Assembly: GCA_024636855.1 (NCBI GenBank)
Contig: JAGXGG010000063.1
Coordinates: 1 to 48,704, forward strand
Reading direction: 5' to 3'
Length of the DNA stretch: 48,704 nt
DNA from: Ignavibacteriota bacterium
GTDB lineage: Bacteria > Bacteroidota > Ignavibacteria > Kapaibacteriales > UBA2268
Made by a program: the position numbers and the translations under genes
Part shown: positions 23,812-36,196 of the stretch, piece by piece
Layout: each line of letters starts with the position of its first letter
Numbering within the stretch: the stretch's first letter is position 1
Notes under the pieces: model-generated
The model's database searches: none
What the model was told of the DNA's origin: nothing
What the model saw: only the letters and a program-made list of their open reading frames with translations

Positions 23812-26800
23812 ATGAAAAAAATAATACTAGCTTTAGTTTTTATACTCCCGTTTATAGCTTTTTCACAAAGTCACTATATCATACCAGATATTGGTGCTCC
23901 CGATATGGCAGTCTATGTAGAGATGATTGCTCCACACGACCAGAAAGGATATTTTGGTGATGATGGTTTCTATCTACCAGGAGTAGATACAGAAGTACAG
24001 ATTAATGCAACAAAGAATTCACAGTACGTAACTTTCGGGCCTATGGTAGTATCTTGGGACGGGCGAGTAATCTCGACTCATATATTTATAGATAGATCGG
24101 CAAACCCGACTCTAACTACTGCCGACCTAGCTTATGAAGTGATAATCGAAATCACTGGTTCGACTGTTCCTGCAACTCGTACATTCAATTATTATATAGT
24201 AAAACCCCAATCATTGGGTAATAATGGTGATATCTCTGGAATAAATGAAACAGTATTAGGAGATGGCAATCTAGGTTTACGTTCCTCTAGAGGAGCTATG
24301 ATTGTTGATTCTTTGACTTTGAAGCCTAATACAATTTATTCTGTTTCTGTAAAAGACCCTGACGGCAACATAGCCAACGGTAATCAAGGATTCTTCCCTG
24401 TTATTATATTGAGCAAAGGACCAATAAAAGGTAATGGCTCCACAATCTCAGTTTCGGCACAAAGCAAAATTGCTGGACCGGGCGGCGGCGGTGGAGGAGG
24501 AAGGTTTGATGACTTCGGTCTCTTTGACAATTCGAGAGGTACTGATGGTGGAAGTGGATATACTGGAGGTGGAAAAGGTGGTTATAATGCATCAAGTGTA
24601 CCAGGTCAAACTGATGAATATAGAGAAATTGGAACAGGTACAGGTGGAAGAGGAATTAGCTATAATGGAGTAGCATTAGATGACCCAACTGGTGGATACG
24701 AAGCCTCTTATGGGGGAACAGGACATCCATTTGGGACTGTAGGTAAGCAAAGTACAAGTGGAAATGCTGCAGATTGGCAAGGAGGATATGGTGGAGGAAC
24801 TGGTTATAGAAATGTCACTCAAGGTGGTGCAGGTGGATTTGCAACTGCTGGTGGTGGTGCTAATGTAACTGGTGGAACAACTGGTGGAAAAATACAAGGT
24901 AACAAATCGTCAATTCCTTTAGCCGGTGGTTCAGGTGGAGCAGGAGGAAATCCTCAAGGACTAAGTGCCGAATCTGGTGAAGGTGGCGGCGGCGGTGGAG
25001 CTATCAAATTATTTGGTAGTGAAGTTGTAAATATAAAAATAGATGCAAATGGTCATAATGGAACAGATGGTGATGGAGCTGCTGATGGTGGCCCAGGCTC
25101 TGGTGGTGCTATTTCGCTTATGGGGAAAGTTGGCATAAGTGGTTTCGACCTTTCTGCAAAAGGTGGTTCAAGAAGTGGTAGGAATGGTGGTTCGGGTAGA
25201 ATCCGTTATGATGGGTATGATGGTATCAGCGACCCTAATTTCACACCTGCCGATGCATCTAATTATAGGGGTATAAGTACTGATACCTCAAAATATATCA
25301 AACCAAGACACAGATTATTCGGTACTCACAAAAAAGATGGTAAAGTAAAGCTATATCAAAAAACTAAAACTACAGATTGGACGCTAAAAGCAGATTTTAA
25401 CTCGCCTTCACCAGGTTGGGTAAATCCACTTGACTATGATGTCAATCACGAAGATGAGTATTATATAGTTGCTATACAAGAGGAAACACAAATAGTTGAT
25501 GACTATACTTATCAACCTAACTTCGTACTTTCTCAAGCGGCTACAAATATACTTCGCTTTGGTGATCAGAATATATATTGCCCAAAAGATACAACATTTG
25601 ATGTTATTAATTGTGCTAATGTCGTTTACGAAGACTCGATACAAATACAATCTATTGGTGGGGATTTCCTAAATATTATTGTTGAAGATAAATGGGTGTT
25701 TGGCGATAAAGGTTTTGAAATTCTTAATCTTGGTGACTATGATATTAGTCCGCAAGACCCGGATAGTTTATTCTACATTAAATTCAGATATACAAAGATA
25801 GCAGGTCAATCTGGGATAATAACAGATACATTGATATTATACAATAACTCACCTACTAAAGATAGCTGCCGTATTGCTGTAAATATCAATTTACAAGATG
25901 CTAAAGTATCATTTCGAAATCAAGCGAATAATACAGAGATAGATACTCTAGATTTGGGAATAATCTGTATTGGTGATATAGCAACTGGAAAATTTAATAT
26001 TAGAAATGAATCAGATTTTGATTTGACAAACATAAGTTTAGTCAAAAGTGGAATGGGACAAGAAACGGACTTCACAATTAATCCGAATACATTAACATCA
26101 ATAGGCAGTAGTTTAAATAGTCTTATAGATGTATCTTTCCAAGATTTGGATAATAATGCTTTTATAGATGGCGTAAGTATCCAAGTAATGGTTTACTCCG
26201 ATCAATGTGCCGATCCAATTGATTCGCTTGTTATCTCAATCAAAGTAGTAACAAGTGAACTAACATTGAGTGAAGCAGATAAGAGTTTGGATTTCGGTAG
26301 TGTACCTATTGGGCAAACAAAGGATATGACTGTAACTCTAACTAATACTGGTGACAAACCAGCTTTAATTCAGTTACCTACTGTCCCAGCTCCTTTCACT
26401 ATGATTTCTCCGACTGTTGGTTCATTCCCTATAGTGTTACAACCTATTAAAACAGATCCAACAGCTAAAATAGACTTTACATATAGATTTAGCCCAACTA
26501 CATCGGGTAATTTCTTAGATAGTACATTATTCAAATCAATTGCGGATAACTCAACTGGTAGCTGTGATTTCGAAATTAAAATGAACCTGACAGGTACTTC
26601 TACTTTAGCTGAGATTAGCTTTAGTGATACTCTAGATTTTGGATTAATGTATGAATGTCAGGATAGTACAGCTGATGCATTCATAACAAATGAATCTGCT
26701 TTCACTATCGCAATAGATACAGCAAATGCAAGATTCAATGGTGGCGATTTAGCTTATTTCAAATTCTTAGCAAAGCCAAGAACAATAAATGTTCAAAACC

Positions 26801-28662
26801 AATTCAGAATAAAGTATGAGCCTCCTACTATACCTACAACAGCGGGTATAAAGCAAACAAAAATTCAATTTGAGTTAGACCCGACAACTGGTGAGACTTT
26901 CGAAATTGTAGTTAAAGCAGAAGTGGATACATTCTTAGTTGATTACTTACCGGGAAAGCCATTGGATTTTGATATGGGGGATATACCAGTTGGTTTCGAT
27001 GTAGCTCCACAGAAAATAAGAATAACTAACAATGGTAAATTACCGAGAACTGTGACTGGAGTAACTTTACCTGCTGGAAGTAAGCTAACTGTAACTCATC
27101 CACTTAGTCTACCTGTCACGATTGATCCTGGAGGGTGGGAAGAATTTGATGTTGATATTACTTTGCTATTAGGTGACGAAGGACTATACAGCGAAGATAT
27201 CACATTTGATTTTGCTAATTGTGACAATAAACTTCCAGTAACTATAATAGCCAAAGGTGTAAAAGGAGAGTTAGAAATAGTTACGGACTTGAATCTTGGT
27301 GATTTACCTCCATGCTTTGATTTGTCAATCCCTGTGTTGTTTAGAAATAAAGGTGATGCAGATATAAGTTTAGATAGTGTTATAGTTGAAGAGAATGGGA
27401 CAGAAATATACAGATTACTTAATATGCCTCAGACACTTACTGTTCTTCCTGGTGCTAATGTTTATCAAGAAGATATTAAAATTAAGAAATCTGGTTTAAT
27501 AGTTGGGTCAACATTTAATGCCACTTTAATAGCTAACACAACGGAAAATGGGAATTTCCAACCATATCCAAAAGCAATTACTGCGAAAATAAAATCTGGA
27601 TTGATTGTTACTCCAGAGCCTGTTGATTTTGGTGGCGTAGGTACAAATCAATCAAGTACTATAACAGTTATTGTTGAGAAAGATCCAGCAGTCCAATTCT
27701 CTGATACAGCTTCTTTTTCAGTTGAAGTGAACAGATTAAATATGAAAAATGGTTATAATGAATACCAATTTACATCGCCAAATATTCTAACTTTAAACTC
27801 TGGTGATACTCAACCCAAATCTTTTGATATAACGTTTACACCTACTAATAGTCAGAATTATGATGATACTTTGAATCTCAAAGTAAGTATCAATGGCTGT
27901 GATTTCTTGTTGCCAGTTTCACTACGAGGTACAGCATTAGCAGGAGACACACTATTAATATATACTAAAGATATGCTCGATGTAGAGCCGAATATAGACC
28001 AATTTAGAATACCAATCTACGGAAAGTTGAAATCTGCTGATGTGGGTATAGATAAGTCCGCAAGTGTAACTATATCAAAGTTAGATATTGATTTCAACAA
28101 GACAATTTACTTCCCGATGACTATTACTAATGGTGATTTTACAAGGAGAGAAACAGACGGTGCTTCTACATTATTAAGTATAAGTATGGATAACCCTGTT
28201 ATAGTTAGCTCAACTGACGAGATAATATTGACAGAGTTAGTCGGACCTACAATGCTAGGTAACAAGAAAGATAATCTTTTCCACCTGAACGCGACGCCAA
28301 CTATAACCGATAGTACTGGAATATCAACTATTGTTGCGACCAGTAGCTTCTTTAATCTTAAAGTTTGCTCAGAAGGGGGAGACCGATTACTAGAATATAC
28401 TGATGGATTTAACTTTACACTGTTGAAGTCATTCGAATCTATCATTATAGATGCTCATCTGGTAGAACCAGGTATGCATAGAGTTAGATTGATGAATATG
28501 ACTGGAAAAACAGAGTTGATAAAAGAAATAGTTAGAGCAAATAATGATGAGAACGATTATACTATAGAGTACAACACCTCGCATTTGAGTAGTGGTGTTT
28601 ACTATATTCTATTCGAAACACCAGCTCGTTACAAAACACATAAATTAATAATAATAAAGTAA
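23812..28662 (+). CDS. Very large secreted protein: glycine-rich domain plus choice-of-anchor D/HYDIN-like repeats plus T9SS tail
   Basis: 1616 aa; GPGGGGGGGRFDDFG...GGGGGGAIKLFGSEVVNIKIDANGHNGTDG...GGSGRIRYDG; 'LDFGSVPIGQTKDMTVTLTNTGDKPA' etc.; C-term MHRVRLMNMTGKTEL...SSGVYYILFETPARYKTHKLIIIK. Confidence 0.88.
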   Translation: MKKIILALVFILPFIAFSQSHYIIPDIGAPDMAVYVEMIAPHDQKGYFGDDGFYLPGVDTEVQINATKNSQYVTFGPMVVSWDGRVISTHIFIDRSANPTLTTADLAYEVIIEITGSTVPATRTFNYYIVKPQSLGNNGDISGINETVLGDGNLGLRSSRGAMIVDSLTLKPNTIYSVSVKDPDGNIANGNQGFFPVIILSKGPIKGNGSTISVSAQSKIAGPGGGGGGGRFDDFGLFDNSRGTDGGSGYTGGGKGGYNASSVPGQTDEYREIGTGTGGRGISYNGVALDDPTGGYEASYGGTGHPFGTVGKQSTSGNAADWQGGYGGGTGYRNVTQGGAGGFATAGGGANVTGGTTGGKIQGNKSSIPLAGGSGGAGGNPQGLSAESGEGGGGGGAIKLFGSEVVNIKIDANGHNGTDGDGAADGGPGSGGAISLMGKVGISGFDLSAKGGSRSGRNGGSGRIRYDGYDGISDPNFTPADASNYRGISTDTSKYIKPRHRLFGTHKKDGKVKLYQKTKTTDWTLKADFNSPSPGWVNPLDYDVNHEDEYYIVAIQEETQIVDDYTYQPNFVLSQAATNILRFGDQNIYCPKDTTFDVINCANVVYEDSIQIQSIGGDFLNIIVEDKWVFGDKGFEILNLGDYDISPQDPDSLFYIKFRYTKIAGQSGIITDTLILYNNSPTKDSCRIAVNINLQDAKVSFRNQANNTEIDTLDLGIICIGDIATGKFNIRNESDFDLTNISLVKSGMGQETDFTINPNTLTSIGSSLNSLIDVSFQDLDNNAFIDGVSIQVMVYSDQCADPIDSLVISIKVVTSELTLSEADKSLDFGSVPIGQTKDMTVTLTNTGDKPALIQLPTVPAPFTMISPTVGSFPIVLQPIKTDPTAKIDFTYRFSPTTSGNFLDSTLFKSIADNSTGSCDFEIKMNLTGTSTLAEISFSDTLDFGLMYECQDSTADAFITNESAFTIAIDTANARFNGGDLAYFKFLAKPRTINVQNQFRIKYEPPTIPTTAGIKQTKIQFELDPTTGETFEIVVKAEVDTFLVDYLPGKPLDFDMGDIPVGFDVAPQKIRITNNGKLPRTVTGVTLPAGSKLTVTHPLSLPVTIDPGGWEEFDVDITLLLGDEGLYSEDITFDFANCDNKLPVTIIAKGVKGELEIVTDLNLGDLPPCFDLSIPVLFRNKGDADISLDSVIVEENGTEIYRLLNMPQTLTVLPGANVYQEDIKIKKSGLIVGSTFNATLIANTTENGNFQPYPKAITAKIKSGLIVTPEPVDFGGVGTNQSSTITVIVEKDPAVQFSDTASFSVEVNRLNMKNGYNEYQFTSPNILTLNSGDTQPKSFDITFTPTNSQNYDDTLNLKVSINGCDFLLPVSLRGTALAGDTLLIYTKDMLDVEPNIDQFRIPIYGKLKSADVGIDKSASVTISKLDIDFNKTIYFPMTITNGDFTRRETDGASTLLSISMDNPVIVSSTDEIILTELVGPTMLGNKKDNLFHLNATPTITDSTGISTIVATSSFFNLKVCSEGGDRLLEYTDGFNFTLLKSFESIIIDAHLVEPGMHRVRLMNMTGKTELIKEIVRANNDENDYTIEYNTSHLSSGVYYILFETPARYKTHKLIIIK

Positions 28663-30838: not shown

Positions 30839-30904
30839 AAGTGTAACTAAATTGCTATTCAGATTGTCTATAATACAACAAAGCAAAAGCAAGACAAAAA
30901 TCTA

Positions 30905-31468
30905 ATGTTTAATTCAAAGAAATATGACCCAGATATAGAGCTAGATGAAGCGGTAGAAAACCTGAGAAAAGGTAGTGCCGAGGCATTTCAGATACTATAT
31001 CATAAGTATCATAACAGAGTTTATAGATTCTGCTTGCGTATGCTTGGTTCTGAATCAATGGCGAAAGATGCCTTCCAAGAAACTTTTGTGAAAATTTATG
31101 AAAAGCGAGAATCATTCAAAGGTGATAATTTTGCTGCTTGGTTGTTCACAATAGCTAGACATAATTGCTACAATATGCTTAGAGCTAAAAAAGAGTATGC
31201 TAGTTTCGATGAGACTTATCATCATGCAAAAACACAGAGAACAACTGATTTTGGATTAAAACAAGCGCTGGAAGAAGCTATTAATAGTCTTCCTAACTCA
31301 CTCAAAGAAGCATTTATCTTACGAGAATATGAAGAGCTTTCGTACCAAGAAATTGCAGATATTTTGGAAATAGAACTTTCTTTGGCCAAAATAAGAGTGT
31401 TCAGAGCAAGAAAAAAACTTAGACTAATATTAAAACCCTTAATGAAAGAATTAGATGAACATAGATAA
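30905..31468 (+). CDS. ECF-type RNA polymerase sigma factor
   Basis: AFQILYHKYHNRVYRFCLRMLGSESMAKDAFQETFVKIYEKRESFKGDNFAAWLFTIARHNCYNMLR (region 2) and AFILREYEELSYQEIADILEIELSLAKIRVFRARKKLR (region 4). Confidence 0.95.
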   Translation: MFNSKKYDPDIELDEAVENLRKGSAEAFQILYHKYHNRVYRFCLRMLGSESMAKDAFQETFVKIYEKRESFKGDNFAAWLFTIARHNCYNMLRAKKEYASFDETYHHAKTQRTTDFGLKQALEEAINSLPNSLKEAFILREYEELSYQEIADILEIELSLAKIRVFRARKKLRLILKPLMKELDEHR

Positions 31469-32750
31469 TTTAATATCGAAATATCTAGATGGTGAGCTTA
31501 CTGAAAATGAAGATTTACAGTTACGCAATCTCATTACTTCTAACGATAATGCTCGTGATATATTCAATACTTATATTGATCTTCATATAGCATCAAAAGA
31601 AGATGCCAAATCAATAACTACTCCTGATAGCTTGAAAAGCGAAACAGAAGATTTGGTGATGATGGCGATAATGAGTGCTTCAGCTATGCCAGCTAAAACA
31701 ACGAAAAGTTTAAATATATTTAATCTGTTCCCTAGACAACTGGTCTCTATGGTAGCAGCACTTCTGTTAATCACATTTACATATACTTCGGATATGAATA
31801 TATTTAAGAATGTTATACCTTCTTATAGTAAAGCAGAAATGGTAATAGAATTACCTCTCGTTTCTAGTAGAGAAGTTAATATTAGTACTGCATCTAATTC
31901 TGCGTCTAATAATAGTACTCAATCTTTTGCTAATAATGAAGTTAAAGAATTTATAATAAATACTGACGCAAATACTAATGATATCGAATCTATCACTATA
32001 GCAAATGCAGAATCAATATCTTATATAACTCAAAAAGATAATCTAAACATAAATGATAGTGATGCAGATACTAAAATTATTGCTTCGGATAATAGTAATG
32101 ACTTACTAAATAAAAATCTTAATCCGACTTTCACTATATTAGACGAGAATACAACTTCATCTAATATGCAATATGGTGATATAGTGAATAAACTAGGACA
32201 ATCTCAAAATAATTTAGCTATTAATAATATTCAGTTGACTGCTTTTACTTCTAGTCCTTACACTTTATATGGATTTGATGATAAAGCAAACGCTTCTATT
32301 AGTTCTTATTCTCAAGCCATATCAGTTAACTTAAACGAAGAGACTAGTATTGGACTTGAGATCGGCTATTCAGATATAGCATATAGAGCAGAAACTTTTA
32401 CACACACAAATGTACTAGATAAATATGGACGTGAGACTGGACAACAAATAGTATTCAGAACTGAAAGAGACAAAGATTATGCAATGTATTGGGGACAAAT
32501 GTTCGTCCAATCACAATTATATAAAATAGATGACTTCGATCTTGGGCTTAGATTGGGGTTAGGTCTTTCTGAAAGTGGGTTAACTAGTAATTCTAGATTA
32601 CTTGCTTCGTATGAGTTAGTAAGTGGAATTAAGTTAACTGCAGGTACAGAATTTAACTACTTTACTGTAGCTTTACCGCAACTAGTTAACTCATATACTC
32701 AGAATTATTATAGTTTCTCTATGGTTTATGGATTGCAATTTAATTTCTAA
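31455..32750 (+). CDS. Anti-sigma-like protein with single TM, long polar linker and C-terminal beta-barrel-like domain
   Basis: Overlaps sigma gene by 14 nt; N-term LISKYLDGELTENEDLQLRNLITSNDNARDIFNTYIDLH resembles anti-sigma N-domains; TM LVSMVAALLLITFTYT; Ser/Asn/Asp-rich linker; C-term alternating beta pattern ending LQFNF. Confidence 0.8.
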   Translation: MNIDNLISKYLDGELTENEDLQLRNLITSNDNARDIFNTYIDLHIASKEDAKSITTPDSLKSETEDLVMMAIMSASAMPAKTTKSLNIFNLFPRQLVSMVAALLLITFTYTSDMNIFKNVIPSYSKAEMVIELPLVSSREVNISTASNSASNNSTQSFANNEVKEFIINTDANTNDIESITIANAESISYITQKDNLNINDSDADTKIIASDNSNDLLNKNLNPTFTILDENTTSSNMQYGDIVNKLGQSQNNLAINNIQLTAFTSSPYTLYGFDDKANASISSYSQAISVNLNEETSIGLEIGYSDIAYRAETFTHTNVLDKYGRETGQQIVFRTERDKDYAMYWGQMFVQSQLYKIDDFDLGLRLGLGLSESGLTSNSRLLASYELVSGIKLTAGTEFNYFTVALPQLVNSYTQNYYSFSMVYGLQFNF

Positions 32751-32986: not shown

Positions 32987-35900
32987 ATGCTGAGAATAGC
33001 ATTAATAGCAATATTAAGTCTTGCATTTATTATACCGCAGTCGCTCACTGCAGGTGTAAACGGAACCGTAAAAGGTGAAGTTGTTGACGAAAATGGTAAT
33101 CCTGCGATTGGAGCATCAGTACTTTTGGTAGGAACTACACAAGGAGCTTACGTAAAAGCAAATGGTAAATTCGCTATACCTGGTGTTAGAGCTGGCTCAT
33201 ATGAATTGAAAGTTTCTTATGCTGGATATGAGCCAACGATTAAGAAAATAAATGTAAGTGCTGATCAAACAACTGATGTAGATTTCAAGCTTAAGACATT
33301 TACAAGTGAAGAAATTGTTGTTACTACTAAGATGGTTGAAAAAACCCAAGTTGGTTCAAATATGATTTTCGATAAAAATGCACTTGAAAGAACAGCTACT
33401 GCAGGTGTTACTTCTTTAGTAACTCAATCTTCTGGTGTTACTAATAGTGGAAACGGATATAATATCCGAGGTATGAGAGCAGAAGATACACAAGTATTAG
33501 TTGATGGTCTTGATATGGGTAATCAATTTACTGGTGGATTTGGTGGTTCTGGTACAGCTTACGCACCAATGGTTTCTCAATATGCTACAGAAGAAGTTCA
33601 AGTGAAAAAAGGTGGTACTGGTGCACAACAAGGTAATGCTGTTGGTGGTACTGTTAATACTGTAGTTAAAACTGGTAATTCAGAAAGTTATGAAGGCTTT
33701 ATTGCTTATAGAGCTGATTTACCTTCTTTAAATGGTTCTCAAGGTCAAGGAGTCGATTTGATTGCCAATGGGAATTCATTTGATATAATTGAACAAGGAG
33801 AAGGTAGACAGCTAGAAGGTGATAATCTTTCGAATTTTGAATTTGGTGTAGGTGGACCTATTCCAGGTTTAGATAAAGCTTTAAATACAGCTACCTTCTA
33901 TTTAACTGGTAGATACGAATTTAGACAAAATAGAGCTTCGACTTACGAATACTATGCTCCAGTGGTAAATGATTTTGGTGGAAATGAAATAATGGGTGGT
34001 GAAAATCTAGGACAAATAGATAACCAAAGATCTTGGGTTAAAAACATCACTGGTAGATTAACTTTTGGTGTTTCTGATAATATTAGTTTAACAGTTGGTG
34101 GACAACTTGGGCAAACAAATTTGGAAAGTCAAGGTTTAAATACATTGTATATGGATCAAGAAGGTGTAATGGATGGCGTATCGAATGGAATAGAAGAGAG
34201 ATTCGCCAAACTTAATGTAACTAACACAGATGTTAATAATGTATTCGTTAAAATGACACATTCATTTTCTGAAGCTTCAGCTTTTTATGATATTAGATTA
34301 TCTTCTAATATAAATAATGATATGATAGGAAGAAGAGCGAATCCAGGTTCAGACCCATCATTTTTCGGTGGCTTTGATATAATGATTCCAACGGATGAAT
34401 ATGCAAGGGATCCAGATACTAGACAATTAACTTTTGGATTGAGGGATAATATACCTGACCAATATACTCCAATATTCACTAGAAAACTTCCAAACGATGG
34501 AAGTTCTGTAGCATCTAAGGAAGATTATTATGTAGCTAATCCGCTTACTGGTTACGTTGAATCTACACCCATTTCGACATTCAGAAATCCTTATGGATCA
34601 GACCAGTTTTTCACTGGACACGGTAGTTACGGATTCCAATTTAGACAAGGTAATTACTTACAAGCCGATGGTAATTTTACAAAGTATATTTCTGGTGATA
34701 GATTTGAACATAATATACAAATGGGTTTTGAATTGAGAACATATACAATGGGGTTTCATTCTAATTCAAGCCCTACAACTTCCGAAACTGTTGATGTATA
34801 TTCATCAGAATTTGGTGGTAATATTTACACTCCTAATCAAGAAATATATGAATTGACAAGTGATGAATTTCGTCCATTTAGAGCTGGTGTGTTTGTACAG
34901 GATCAAATTTCATTCGAAGGTATAATTATAACACCAGGTATGAGATTTGATATGTTTAATGCAAATGCAGTTTATAGAACAGAACTTTTCCCATTGCCTG
35001 CAATCGATGAAGTTGACAAGTTTAGTGAAACTGAAGCAAAGATTATGATTAGCCCGCGTTTAAATGCTAGTTATCCGATTACAGATCAGTCAATATTCAA
35101 AATGAACTTTGGTATTTATTACCAAATGCCTCAGCTGCAATATATGTTTGATGGAGCTAATTTAGTTGCTGAAAATATTAGAAGACCAATTATAGGTAAT
35201 CCTAACATAGAGCCTCAAAGAACAAATAAATATGAAGTTGGATATACTACAGCATTAACAGAAGATTTTGCATTGGATATCAATGCATATTATAATGATA
35301 TTTATAATCAATTAGGTTATGCGTATATAGCAGATGCTAATCCATATTATCTAGCTGAAGTTGGGCAGTATGGTACGAACAAAGGTGTTGAAATTGATTT
35401 AAGAAAAAGAGTAAGAGATCATTTTGGATTTAGAATTGCTTACACATTAGGTTCTATTCGAGGAACCAGTGCTGAAGCAAGATCAAGTACTAATTTAAAT
35501 TTTGATCCCATAACTAGTAATCCTACATTACCTTTGGCTACTATTAGGCTAGGGAGAGATATTACACATAGATTAACAACGGTTGTGAATTTTGATTGGG
35601 GAACAGAAGAAGGTCCTTCGATTGGTGGTATTCACTTGTTAGAGAATGCATATATAACATTTACAGGAAACTTTAATTCGGGCTCTCCATATACTTTGAC
35701 AACCATAAATGGAATTGGTCAACTTTCAGAAATAAATGCTCTTGAAGGTCCTGCAAGGTGGAGTATTGATACTAGACTAGGAAAAAGATTTCAATTAAGC
35801 GACCTATTCGGTGAAGGAATGGGTAATTCATCTGTAGAGATATATGTCGATATATTCAATACTACTAATAGAACAGAAGCTGTTGCTGTATATGGTGGTA

Positions 35901-36196
35901 CACAAAGTACTTTAGATGATGGAACTTTAAAAGTTAGAAATCAAGGTAGTTTTTCACCAAATACATTCTATGATCAAAGTAATCCAGCGGTTGCTGCTTC
36001 TTATGCTCCTAGACAGTATAATCAATTCGGTGAAAGACATTACTTTATTGCAGCTGACATAGATCAAAATGGGATTGTAACTAGAGAAGAGCAATATGAG
36101 AATTTTGTTAACACTCTAAATGAAACAAGATATAAAAATAAACCTCTATATCAATTACCAAGAACTATATTTTTTGGTGCTGTAATTAGGTTCTAA
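32987..36196 (+). CDS. TonB-dependent receptor with N-terminal carboxypeptidase-regulatory-like domain (ORF track start 32954 is TTG; ATG 32987 preferred)
   Basis: GTVKGEVVDENGNPAIGASVLLVGTTQGAYVKANGKFAIPGVRAGSYELKVSYAGYE; plug-like YNIRGMRAEDTQVLVDGLDMGNQF; C-term PRTIFFGAVIRF; AGGAG RBS before ATG 32987. Confidence 0.92.
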   Translation: MLRIALIAILSLAFIIPQSLTAGVNGTVKGEVVDENGNPAIGASVLLVGTTQGAYVKANGKFAIPGVRAGSYELKVSYAGYEPTIKKINVSADQTTDVDFKLKTFTSEEIVVTTKMVEKTQVGSNMIFDKNALERTATAGVTSLVTQSSGVTNSGNGYNIRGMRAEDTQVLVDGLDMGNQFTGGFGGSGTAYAPMVSQYATEEVQVKKGGTGAQQGNAVGGTVNTVVKTGNSESYEGFIAYRADLPSLNGSQGQGVDLIANGNSFDIIEQGEGRQLEGDNLSNFEFGVGGPIPGLDKALNTATFYLTGRYEFRQNRASTYEYYAPVVNDFGGNEIMGGENLGQIDNQRSWVKNITGRLTFGVSDNISLTVGGQLGQTNLESQGLNTLYMDQEGVMDGVSNGIEERFAKLNVTNTDVNNVFVKMTHSFSEASAFYDIRLSSNINNDMIGRRANPGSDPSFFGGFDIMIPTDEYARDPDTRQLTFGLRDNIPDQYTPIFTRKLPNDGSSVASKEDYYVANPLTGYVESTPISTFRNPYGSDQFFTGHGSYGFQFRQGNYLQADGNFTKYISGDRFEHNIQMGFELRTYTMGFHSNSSPTTSETVDVYSSEFGGNIYTPNQEIYELTSDEFRPFRAGVFVQDQISFEGIIITPGMRFDMFNANAVYRTELFPLPAIDEVDKFSETEAKIMISPRLNASYPITDQSIFKMNFGIYYQMPQLQYMFDGANLVAENIRRPIIGNPNIEPQRTNKYEVGYTTALTEDFALDINAYYNDIYNQLGYAYIADANPYYLAEVGQYGTNKGVEIDLRKRVRDHFGFRIAYTLGSIRGTSAEARSSTNLNFDPITSNPTLPLATIRLGRDITHRLTTVVNFDWGTEEGPSIGGIHLLENAYITFTGNFNSGSPYTLTTINGIGQLSEINALEGPARWSIDTRLGKRFQLSDLFGEGMGNSSVEIYVDIFNTTNRTEAVAVYGGTQSTLDDGTLKVRNQGSFSPNTFYDQSNPAVAASYAPRQYNQFGERHYFIAADIDQNGIVTREEQYENFVNTLNETRYKNKPLYQLPRTIFFGAVIRF

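Follow-up and report, generated by a model that had tools for sequence, protein, structure and literature searches.

How could a single polypeptide connect the state of the outer membrane (OM) with transcription in the cytoplasm? The question is raised by a 48,704-nt stretch of DNA (hereafter, the window) from a Kapaibacteria-like, deep-branching member of the Bacteroidota, in which the gene of a 431-aa protein overlaps that of an ECF sigma factor. A first-pass annotation had read this protein as a cytoplasmic anti-sigma domain, a transmembrane (TM) helix, a polar linker and an OM beta-barrel joined in one chain. We propose, with a probability of about 0.76, that it works as a trans-envelope anti-sigma factor of the Dma kind and gates a regulon of type IX secretion system (T9SS) cargo and TonB-system genes, a proposal that draws its anatomy from structure prediction and its regulon from sequence inference. 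The protein would probably hold back a switch for genes of surface-secreted proteins.

The locus and its sigma factor gene

The locus comprises the following features:

30842..30869, + strand: predicted ECF promoter, TGTAAC-N17-TGTCT (exact motif upstream of the gene in 19 of 25 orthologs)
30905..31468, + strand: ECF sigma factor, 187 aa (Sigma70_r2, PF04542, E=1.3e-18; Sigma70_r4_2, PF08281, E=2.5e-15; TIGR02937 over cut-off)
31455..32750, + strand: candidate Dma-like trans-envelope anti-sigma factor, 431 aa (ORF, homologs, AlphaFold2 model)
32987..36196, + strand: TonB-dependent receptor with a carboxypeptidase-regulatory-like domain (PF13620, PF13715, PF07715)

For the placement of the sigma factor in an ECF group, the best NCBIfam match falls below its cut-off. 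The ORF of the 431-aa protein is open and starts 14 nt within the sigma factor ORF. A homolog of the TonB-dependent receptor lies downstream of the sigma/anti-sigma pair in 24 of the 32 named loci, and an OmpA homolog is found upstream of the pair in 8/32. In the window, the sigma gene is preceded by an OmpA-family gene, itself located downstream of a gene (23812-28662) for a 1616-aa protein with Ig-like ASH/HYDIN-type domains and a Por_Secre_tail match just below the Pfam cut-off.

Architecture of the 431-aa protein

An AlphaFold2 (AF2) model built from 29 orthologs divides the chain into four modules, the boundaries of which agree within a few residues with those first assigned to the TM helix (94-110), the linker (112-250) and the barrel (255-431):

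31455..31682, + strand: predicted four-helix cytoplasmic anti-sigma domain, residues 1-76 (AF2 pLDDT about 90; Foldseek)
31731..31802, + strand: inner-membrane TM helix, residues 93-116, probably N-in (hydropathy, AF2 helix)
31803..32216, + strand: predicted disordered periplasmic tether rich in Ser/Asn/Asp/Thr, residues 117-254 (pLDDT)
32229..32747, + strand: predicted eight-stranded OM beta-barrel, residues 259-431 (AF2, Foldseek)
32712..32747, + strand: last strand, FSMVYGLQFNF, with a terminal Phe and beta-signal-like (conserved YG-x-hydrophobic-x-(F/L) end)

The N-terminal domain is modelled as helices 3-12, 17-29, 31-53 and 58-76 (pLDDT about 90), that is, a three-helix bundle with a fourth helix; an arrangement of this kind is what defines class I anti-sigma domains (ASDI; PMC7406223). 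When residues 1-118 were modelled alone, the seven best Foldseek matches in the PDB were all RsiW, MucA or RseA, represented by chains from sigma/anti-sigma complexes, and ChrR and RslA appeared further down the list. Judged from the model, this list is specific despite the weak E-values of the seven best matches (0.06-1.8). The anti-sigma similarity proposed for the N-terminus is thus found at the level of structure. A weak zf-HC2 match, of the anti-sigma zinc-finger kind, covers residues 4-24 (E=0.024). The sequence profile of the domain searched against the PDB returned nothing meaningful.

The segments that follow the N-domain also correspond to the earlier description. In 30 orthologs, the TM segment is flanked by a mean of 4.0 Lys and Arg residues before it versus 1.6 after it, a positive-inside trend; the window protein itself has two on each side. 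Residues 113-254 have pLDDT <50 throughout. The C-terminus is modelled as a barrel and not as a soluble fold: eight strands lie within residues 259-430 with pLDDT mostly >90, and Foldseek matches in the PDB comprise the OmpA TM domain (TMt 0.61-0.63), NspA (0.56) and other OM barrels, while the family search of the barrel gave no match in Pfam or NCBIfam. The model thereby predicts an OM location for this domain. Suggested to be a beta-signal, the terminal Phe turned out to belong to a YG-x-hydrophobic-x-(F/L) C-terminus present in nearly all of the 30 orthologs, one of which is interrupted by a contig end.

Conservation and paralogous pairs

Matches to the 431-aa protein occur in 40 of 60 relatives, and the family profile matches 98 of the 123 genomes of the order; where it matches less strongly, the match is short or falls on a paralog. 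In a sample of the phylum, full-length matches were found only within the order, and a single divergent two-piece match came from the same class. The named ortholog loci are mostly from MAGs labelled Candidatus Kapaibacterium, Kapabacteria, Ignavibacteria or Bacteroidetes; at present, the NCBI taxonomy assigns Kapaibacterium to the Bacteroidota, class Eximiradiia. Two orthologs (L064, L072) are on contigs labelled Desulfobulbaceae and Bradyrhizobiaceae, which most likely are mis-binned MAG contigs.

The overlap with the sigma ORF, part of the initial observation, recurs in 30/30 orthologs read singly and measures 4-14 nt, almost every one having either 11 or 14. The hydrophobic segment lies mostly around residue 90-105 in these orthologs, and homologs beside ECF genes retain both ends of the protein. 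With such conservation of the modules, the architecture is not a chance occurrence.

The source genome contains about 14 ECF-like sigma genes, and at least six of the sigma factors are paired with proteins of this kind: that of the window and those on contigs C48, C4, C100, C83 and C85. On these five contigs (loci L095, L179, L182, L183, L186), the ECF gene is followed by that of an anti-sigma protein with a TM helix, a polar linker and a barrel-like C-terminus. Comparison of the window family with an alignment of the paralogs, which takes in proteins from further genomes of the order, indicates that the two are homologous in both the N-domain (hhalign 97.8%, E=7e-13) and the barrel (99.1%, E=1e-18). 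The linker of one paralog (L113, 1160-2422) consists of tandem RSEASRDTE-type repeats, so that the number of repeats may set the length of the tether. In other Bacteroidota (L104 and L109; G206 and G364), an anti-sigma-like N-terminus and a TM segment are followed by about thirty ASPDFSRLM-type repeats.

Promoter motif and predicted regulon

The predicted promoter is separated by 35 nt from the sigma gene, which is presumably autoregulated through it. Exact TGTAAC-N17-TGTCT is present in 19 of 25 ortholog upstream regions (0 in shuffles) and the looser TGTAAC-N16-18-TGT in 24 (0-0.03 in shuffles); six orthologous promoters depart from the exact motif. The window holds one motif site at <=1 mismatch, that at 30842-30869, with a chance expectation of about one. 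Across 10 genomes, a scan identified 72 motif sites versus 17 for the reversed control pattern. The density was 2.0/Mb in genomes with an ortholog, 1.1/Mb in those without and 0.5-0.6/Mb for the control (P=0.005). Site density follows the presence of the ortholog; the trend is as expected, albeit not clean, because several of the ortholog-less genomes are incomplete. Two genomes (G026, G028) have plausible motif sites though no ortholog was detected in them, and either incompleteness of the bins or another sigma factor reading these sites may account for this. These sequence data suggest that the window sigma factor reads TGTAAC-N17-TGTCT promoters.

The DNA downstream of the motif was read at 39 sites besides the sigma factor's own. 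Genes with a T9SS type A sorting domain (TIGR04183) follow 24 of these 39 sites; TonB, ExbB/TolQ or ExbD/TolR-type genes or STAS-ExbB pairs follow eight, and at one site a small gene is followed by that of a TonB-dependent receptor. The remaining sites are truncated, without assignment or probably intragenic. In nine of 10 genomes, TIGR04183 has at least 150 matches per genome, and T9SS-sorted proteins make up a background of roughly 6-9% of genes; 24 of about 40 sites therefore far exceeds expectation, with the proviso that close relatives do not contribute independent motif sites. In the window genome taken separately, seven sites could be assigned, and T9SS-sorted genes follow five of them (binomial P about 1e-4, with the background set at 9%). 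In independent support, the gene that immediately follows the pair encodes, in most other genera, T9SS cargo akin to the promoter-bearing cargo genes (E 1e-11 to 1e-45). Collectively, the predicted regulon consists of T9SS cargo and TonB-system genes.

Two further arrangements were observed downstream of the motif. In several genera (L273, L278, L293), a gene for a STAS-domain protein, resembling anti-sigma antagonists, is located directly 5' of an ExbB/TolQ-like gene. At another locus (L302, 159-2149), the gene of a BlaI-like repressor is followed by that of a BlaR1-like membrane protein with a TonB C-terminal domain.

Proposed mechanism and alternatives

In the proposed mechanism, the four-helix N-domain would bind the sigma factor encoded by the overlapping gene and silence it in the cytoplasm. 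One helix would fix the protein in the inner membrane, the disordered stretch of about 140 residues would span the periplasm and the eight-stranded barrel would be seated in the OM. A change at the barrel, such as ligand or partner protein binding, failed insertion or barrel loss, would release the sigma factor, most plausibly through proteolysis. The freed sigma factor would then act at TGTAAC-N17-TGTCT promoters, raising expression of its own operon, of many T9SS-sorted secreted proteins and of ExbB/ExbD/TonB-type energisers. By prediction or comparison we show the four modules, the nature of the downstream genes and the conservation of both pairing and promoter; the direction of signalling, from barrel to sigma factor, we infer.

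A different role for the barrel is conceivable, although on balance we consider it rather unlikely: it could be a mere anchor or assembly reporter, with periplasmic proteases doing the sensing as for RseA and cleaving the anti-sigma factor when an uninserted barrel presents itself as a decoy substrate. The barrel is small and OmpA/NspA-like, its invariant residues in the ortholog alignment (G300, E302, G304, R366, G370, G375 and G397) are mainly glycines and strand residues, fitting a structural role, and the products of the predicted regulon, T9SS cargo and a TonB receptor, would load the OM. An assembly-stress regulon, however, should hold BAM, chaperone and OM-protease genes, and none was seen among the motif sites read.

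It is improbable that another ECF sigma factor of the genome owns the TGTAAC-N17-TGTCT regulon and that the window pair is simply one of its targets. Related ECF sigma factors often share GTAAC/GTC-like elements, and the upstream check covered the five barrel-type paralogs among the roughly 14 ECF sigma genes. Yet the motif is a regular companion of the window sigma gene in its orthologs, its density in genomes follows that ortholog, and the exact site is absent from the upstream stretch read at each of the five paralogs; that of C48 contains a TGTAAC element of related type but lacks TGTCT, and for C85 the start found may be wrong.

We give little credence to a mechanical tether, in which the linker is stretched over the periplasm and envelope spacing or OM detachment alters the pull on the anti-sigma domain. 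A worm-like-chain estimate for 138 residues, with a contour length of about 50 nm, an rms extent of about 6 nm and an assumed persistence length of 0.4 nm, gives about 9-20 pN over 20-30 nm, and the linkers of 30 orthologs, by the measure applied to them, are never shorter than 139 residues. They range up to 271 residues, however, and this nearly two-fold variation argues against a precise spacing gauge. Finally, the 431-aa chain could be an OM protein whose N-terminus merely bears an unrelated helical extension. Its having zero Pfam or NCBIfam matches above cut-off would be compatible with this reading, but the reading is very improbable given that the top structural matches of the N-domain are anti-sigma factors, that the ECF gene overlap is invariant among orthologs and that the paralogous sigma/barrel pairs share homologous N-domains.

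Comparison with known systems

The chains of RsiW, MucA and RseA terminate either in the periplasm or outside the membrane and are not known to include an OM barrel. The window protein resembles these class I factors in having a membrane-anchored, four-helix cytoplasmic domain predicted to silence an ECF sigma factor; a difference is the zinc motif Hx3Cx2C, which was not seen in its N-domain. With FecI/FecR/FecA it shares the proposed passage of an OM signal to an ECF sigma factor, as well as the TonB receptor gene adjoining the pair. In that system, however, receptor, anti-sigma factor and sigma factor are separate proteins, and FecR-type signalling was ruled out for the window pair, since the 431-aa protein has no match to the FecR domain in Pfam or NCBIfam. 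In Porphyromonas gingivalis, type IX secretion genes are likewise under an ECF sigma factor: SigP, subordinate to PorXY, controls those of the T9SS machinery (PMC4800418). SigP differs in acting on machinery genes through another motif and under a two-component system, whereas the window sigma factor would act mainly on cargo and TonB-system genes and be controlled by a barrel-tethered anti-sigma factor.

The closest counterparts are the Dma proteins of Bacteroides thetaiotaomicron, which combine an anti-sigma domain, a TM helix, a long disordered tether and a C-terminal barrel, are encoded next to ECF21 sigma factors and have been described solely among Bacteroidota (PMC13088901). According to Pardue 2026 (PMC13088901), Dma1 (Pardue 2024, PNAS 121:e2321910121) has the same trans-envelope architecture. 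The window protein matches them in order of modules, adjoining ECF gene and phylum. The first-pass interpretation was thus right in placing an anti-sigma domain and an OM barrel in one chain, whereas the view that this was a new architecture did not hold, the design having been published.

As proxies for Dma proteins we used two NigD-bearing Bacteroidales genomes, in which four ECF genes precede Dma-type proteins; two of the four genes lie beside NigD, as expected of Dma1 (adjacency inferred from coordinates). NF058625 (sigma_PG0214) was rejected as a marker of Dma partners, its best members preceding ordinary short anti-sigma factors that have no barrel. No homology was detectable between the window family and this small four-sequence proxy alignment, which stands in for the B. 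thetaiotaomicron Dma sequences themselves (hhalign 7.9% over the full length, 5.3% for the N-domain). About 92 residues precede the TM helix in the window protein versus about 45-60 in the Bacteroidales Dma-type proteins, and PF13505 or PF13568 is over cut-off in three of the four Bacteroidales barrels versus neither in the window barrel. A separate origin from Dma is possible from these sequence comparisons and, with four sequences in the alignment, unproven. We regard it as possible, though less likely than not, that Kapaibacteria evolved or rebuilt the dual-membrane design on their own from a class I anti-sigma domain and an unrelated small barrel, and that it was then multiplied to at least six circuits per genome, one of them a master switch coupling the OM to T9SS-cargo and TonB-energy expression.

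On the Dma-like reading, sensors that span from cytoplasm to OM in one chain would be a recurring form of ECF control and not a Bacteroides speciality, with at least six sigma factors of one deep-branching Bacteroidota genome under barrel-tethered control. The conserved promoter yields an initial set of predicted targets, namely T9SS cargo and energisers of the TonB type, making the circuit testable; through it, cells may match the supply of type IX cargo to the state of the OM. The Kapaibacteria counterpart differs from Dma in its predicted regulon, as against the NigD/OMV/PUL functions of Dma, and in its number, one genome having no fewer than six copies. Overall, the architecture was already known, and what is new is a sequence-distinct, multiplied Kapaibacteria version of it with a predicted T9SS/TonB regulon.
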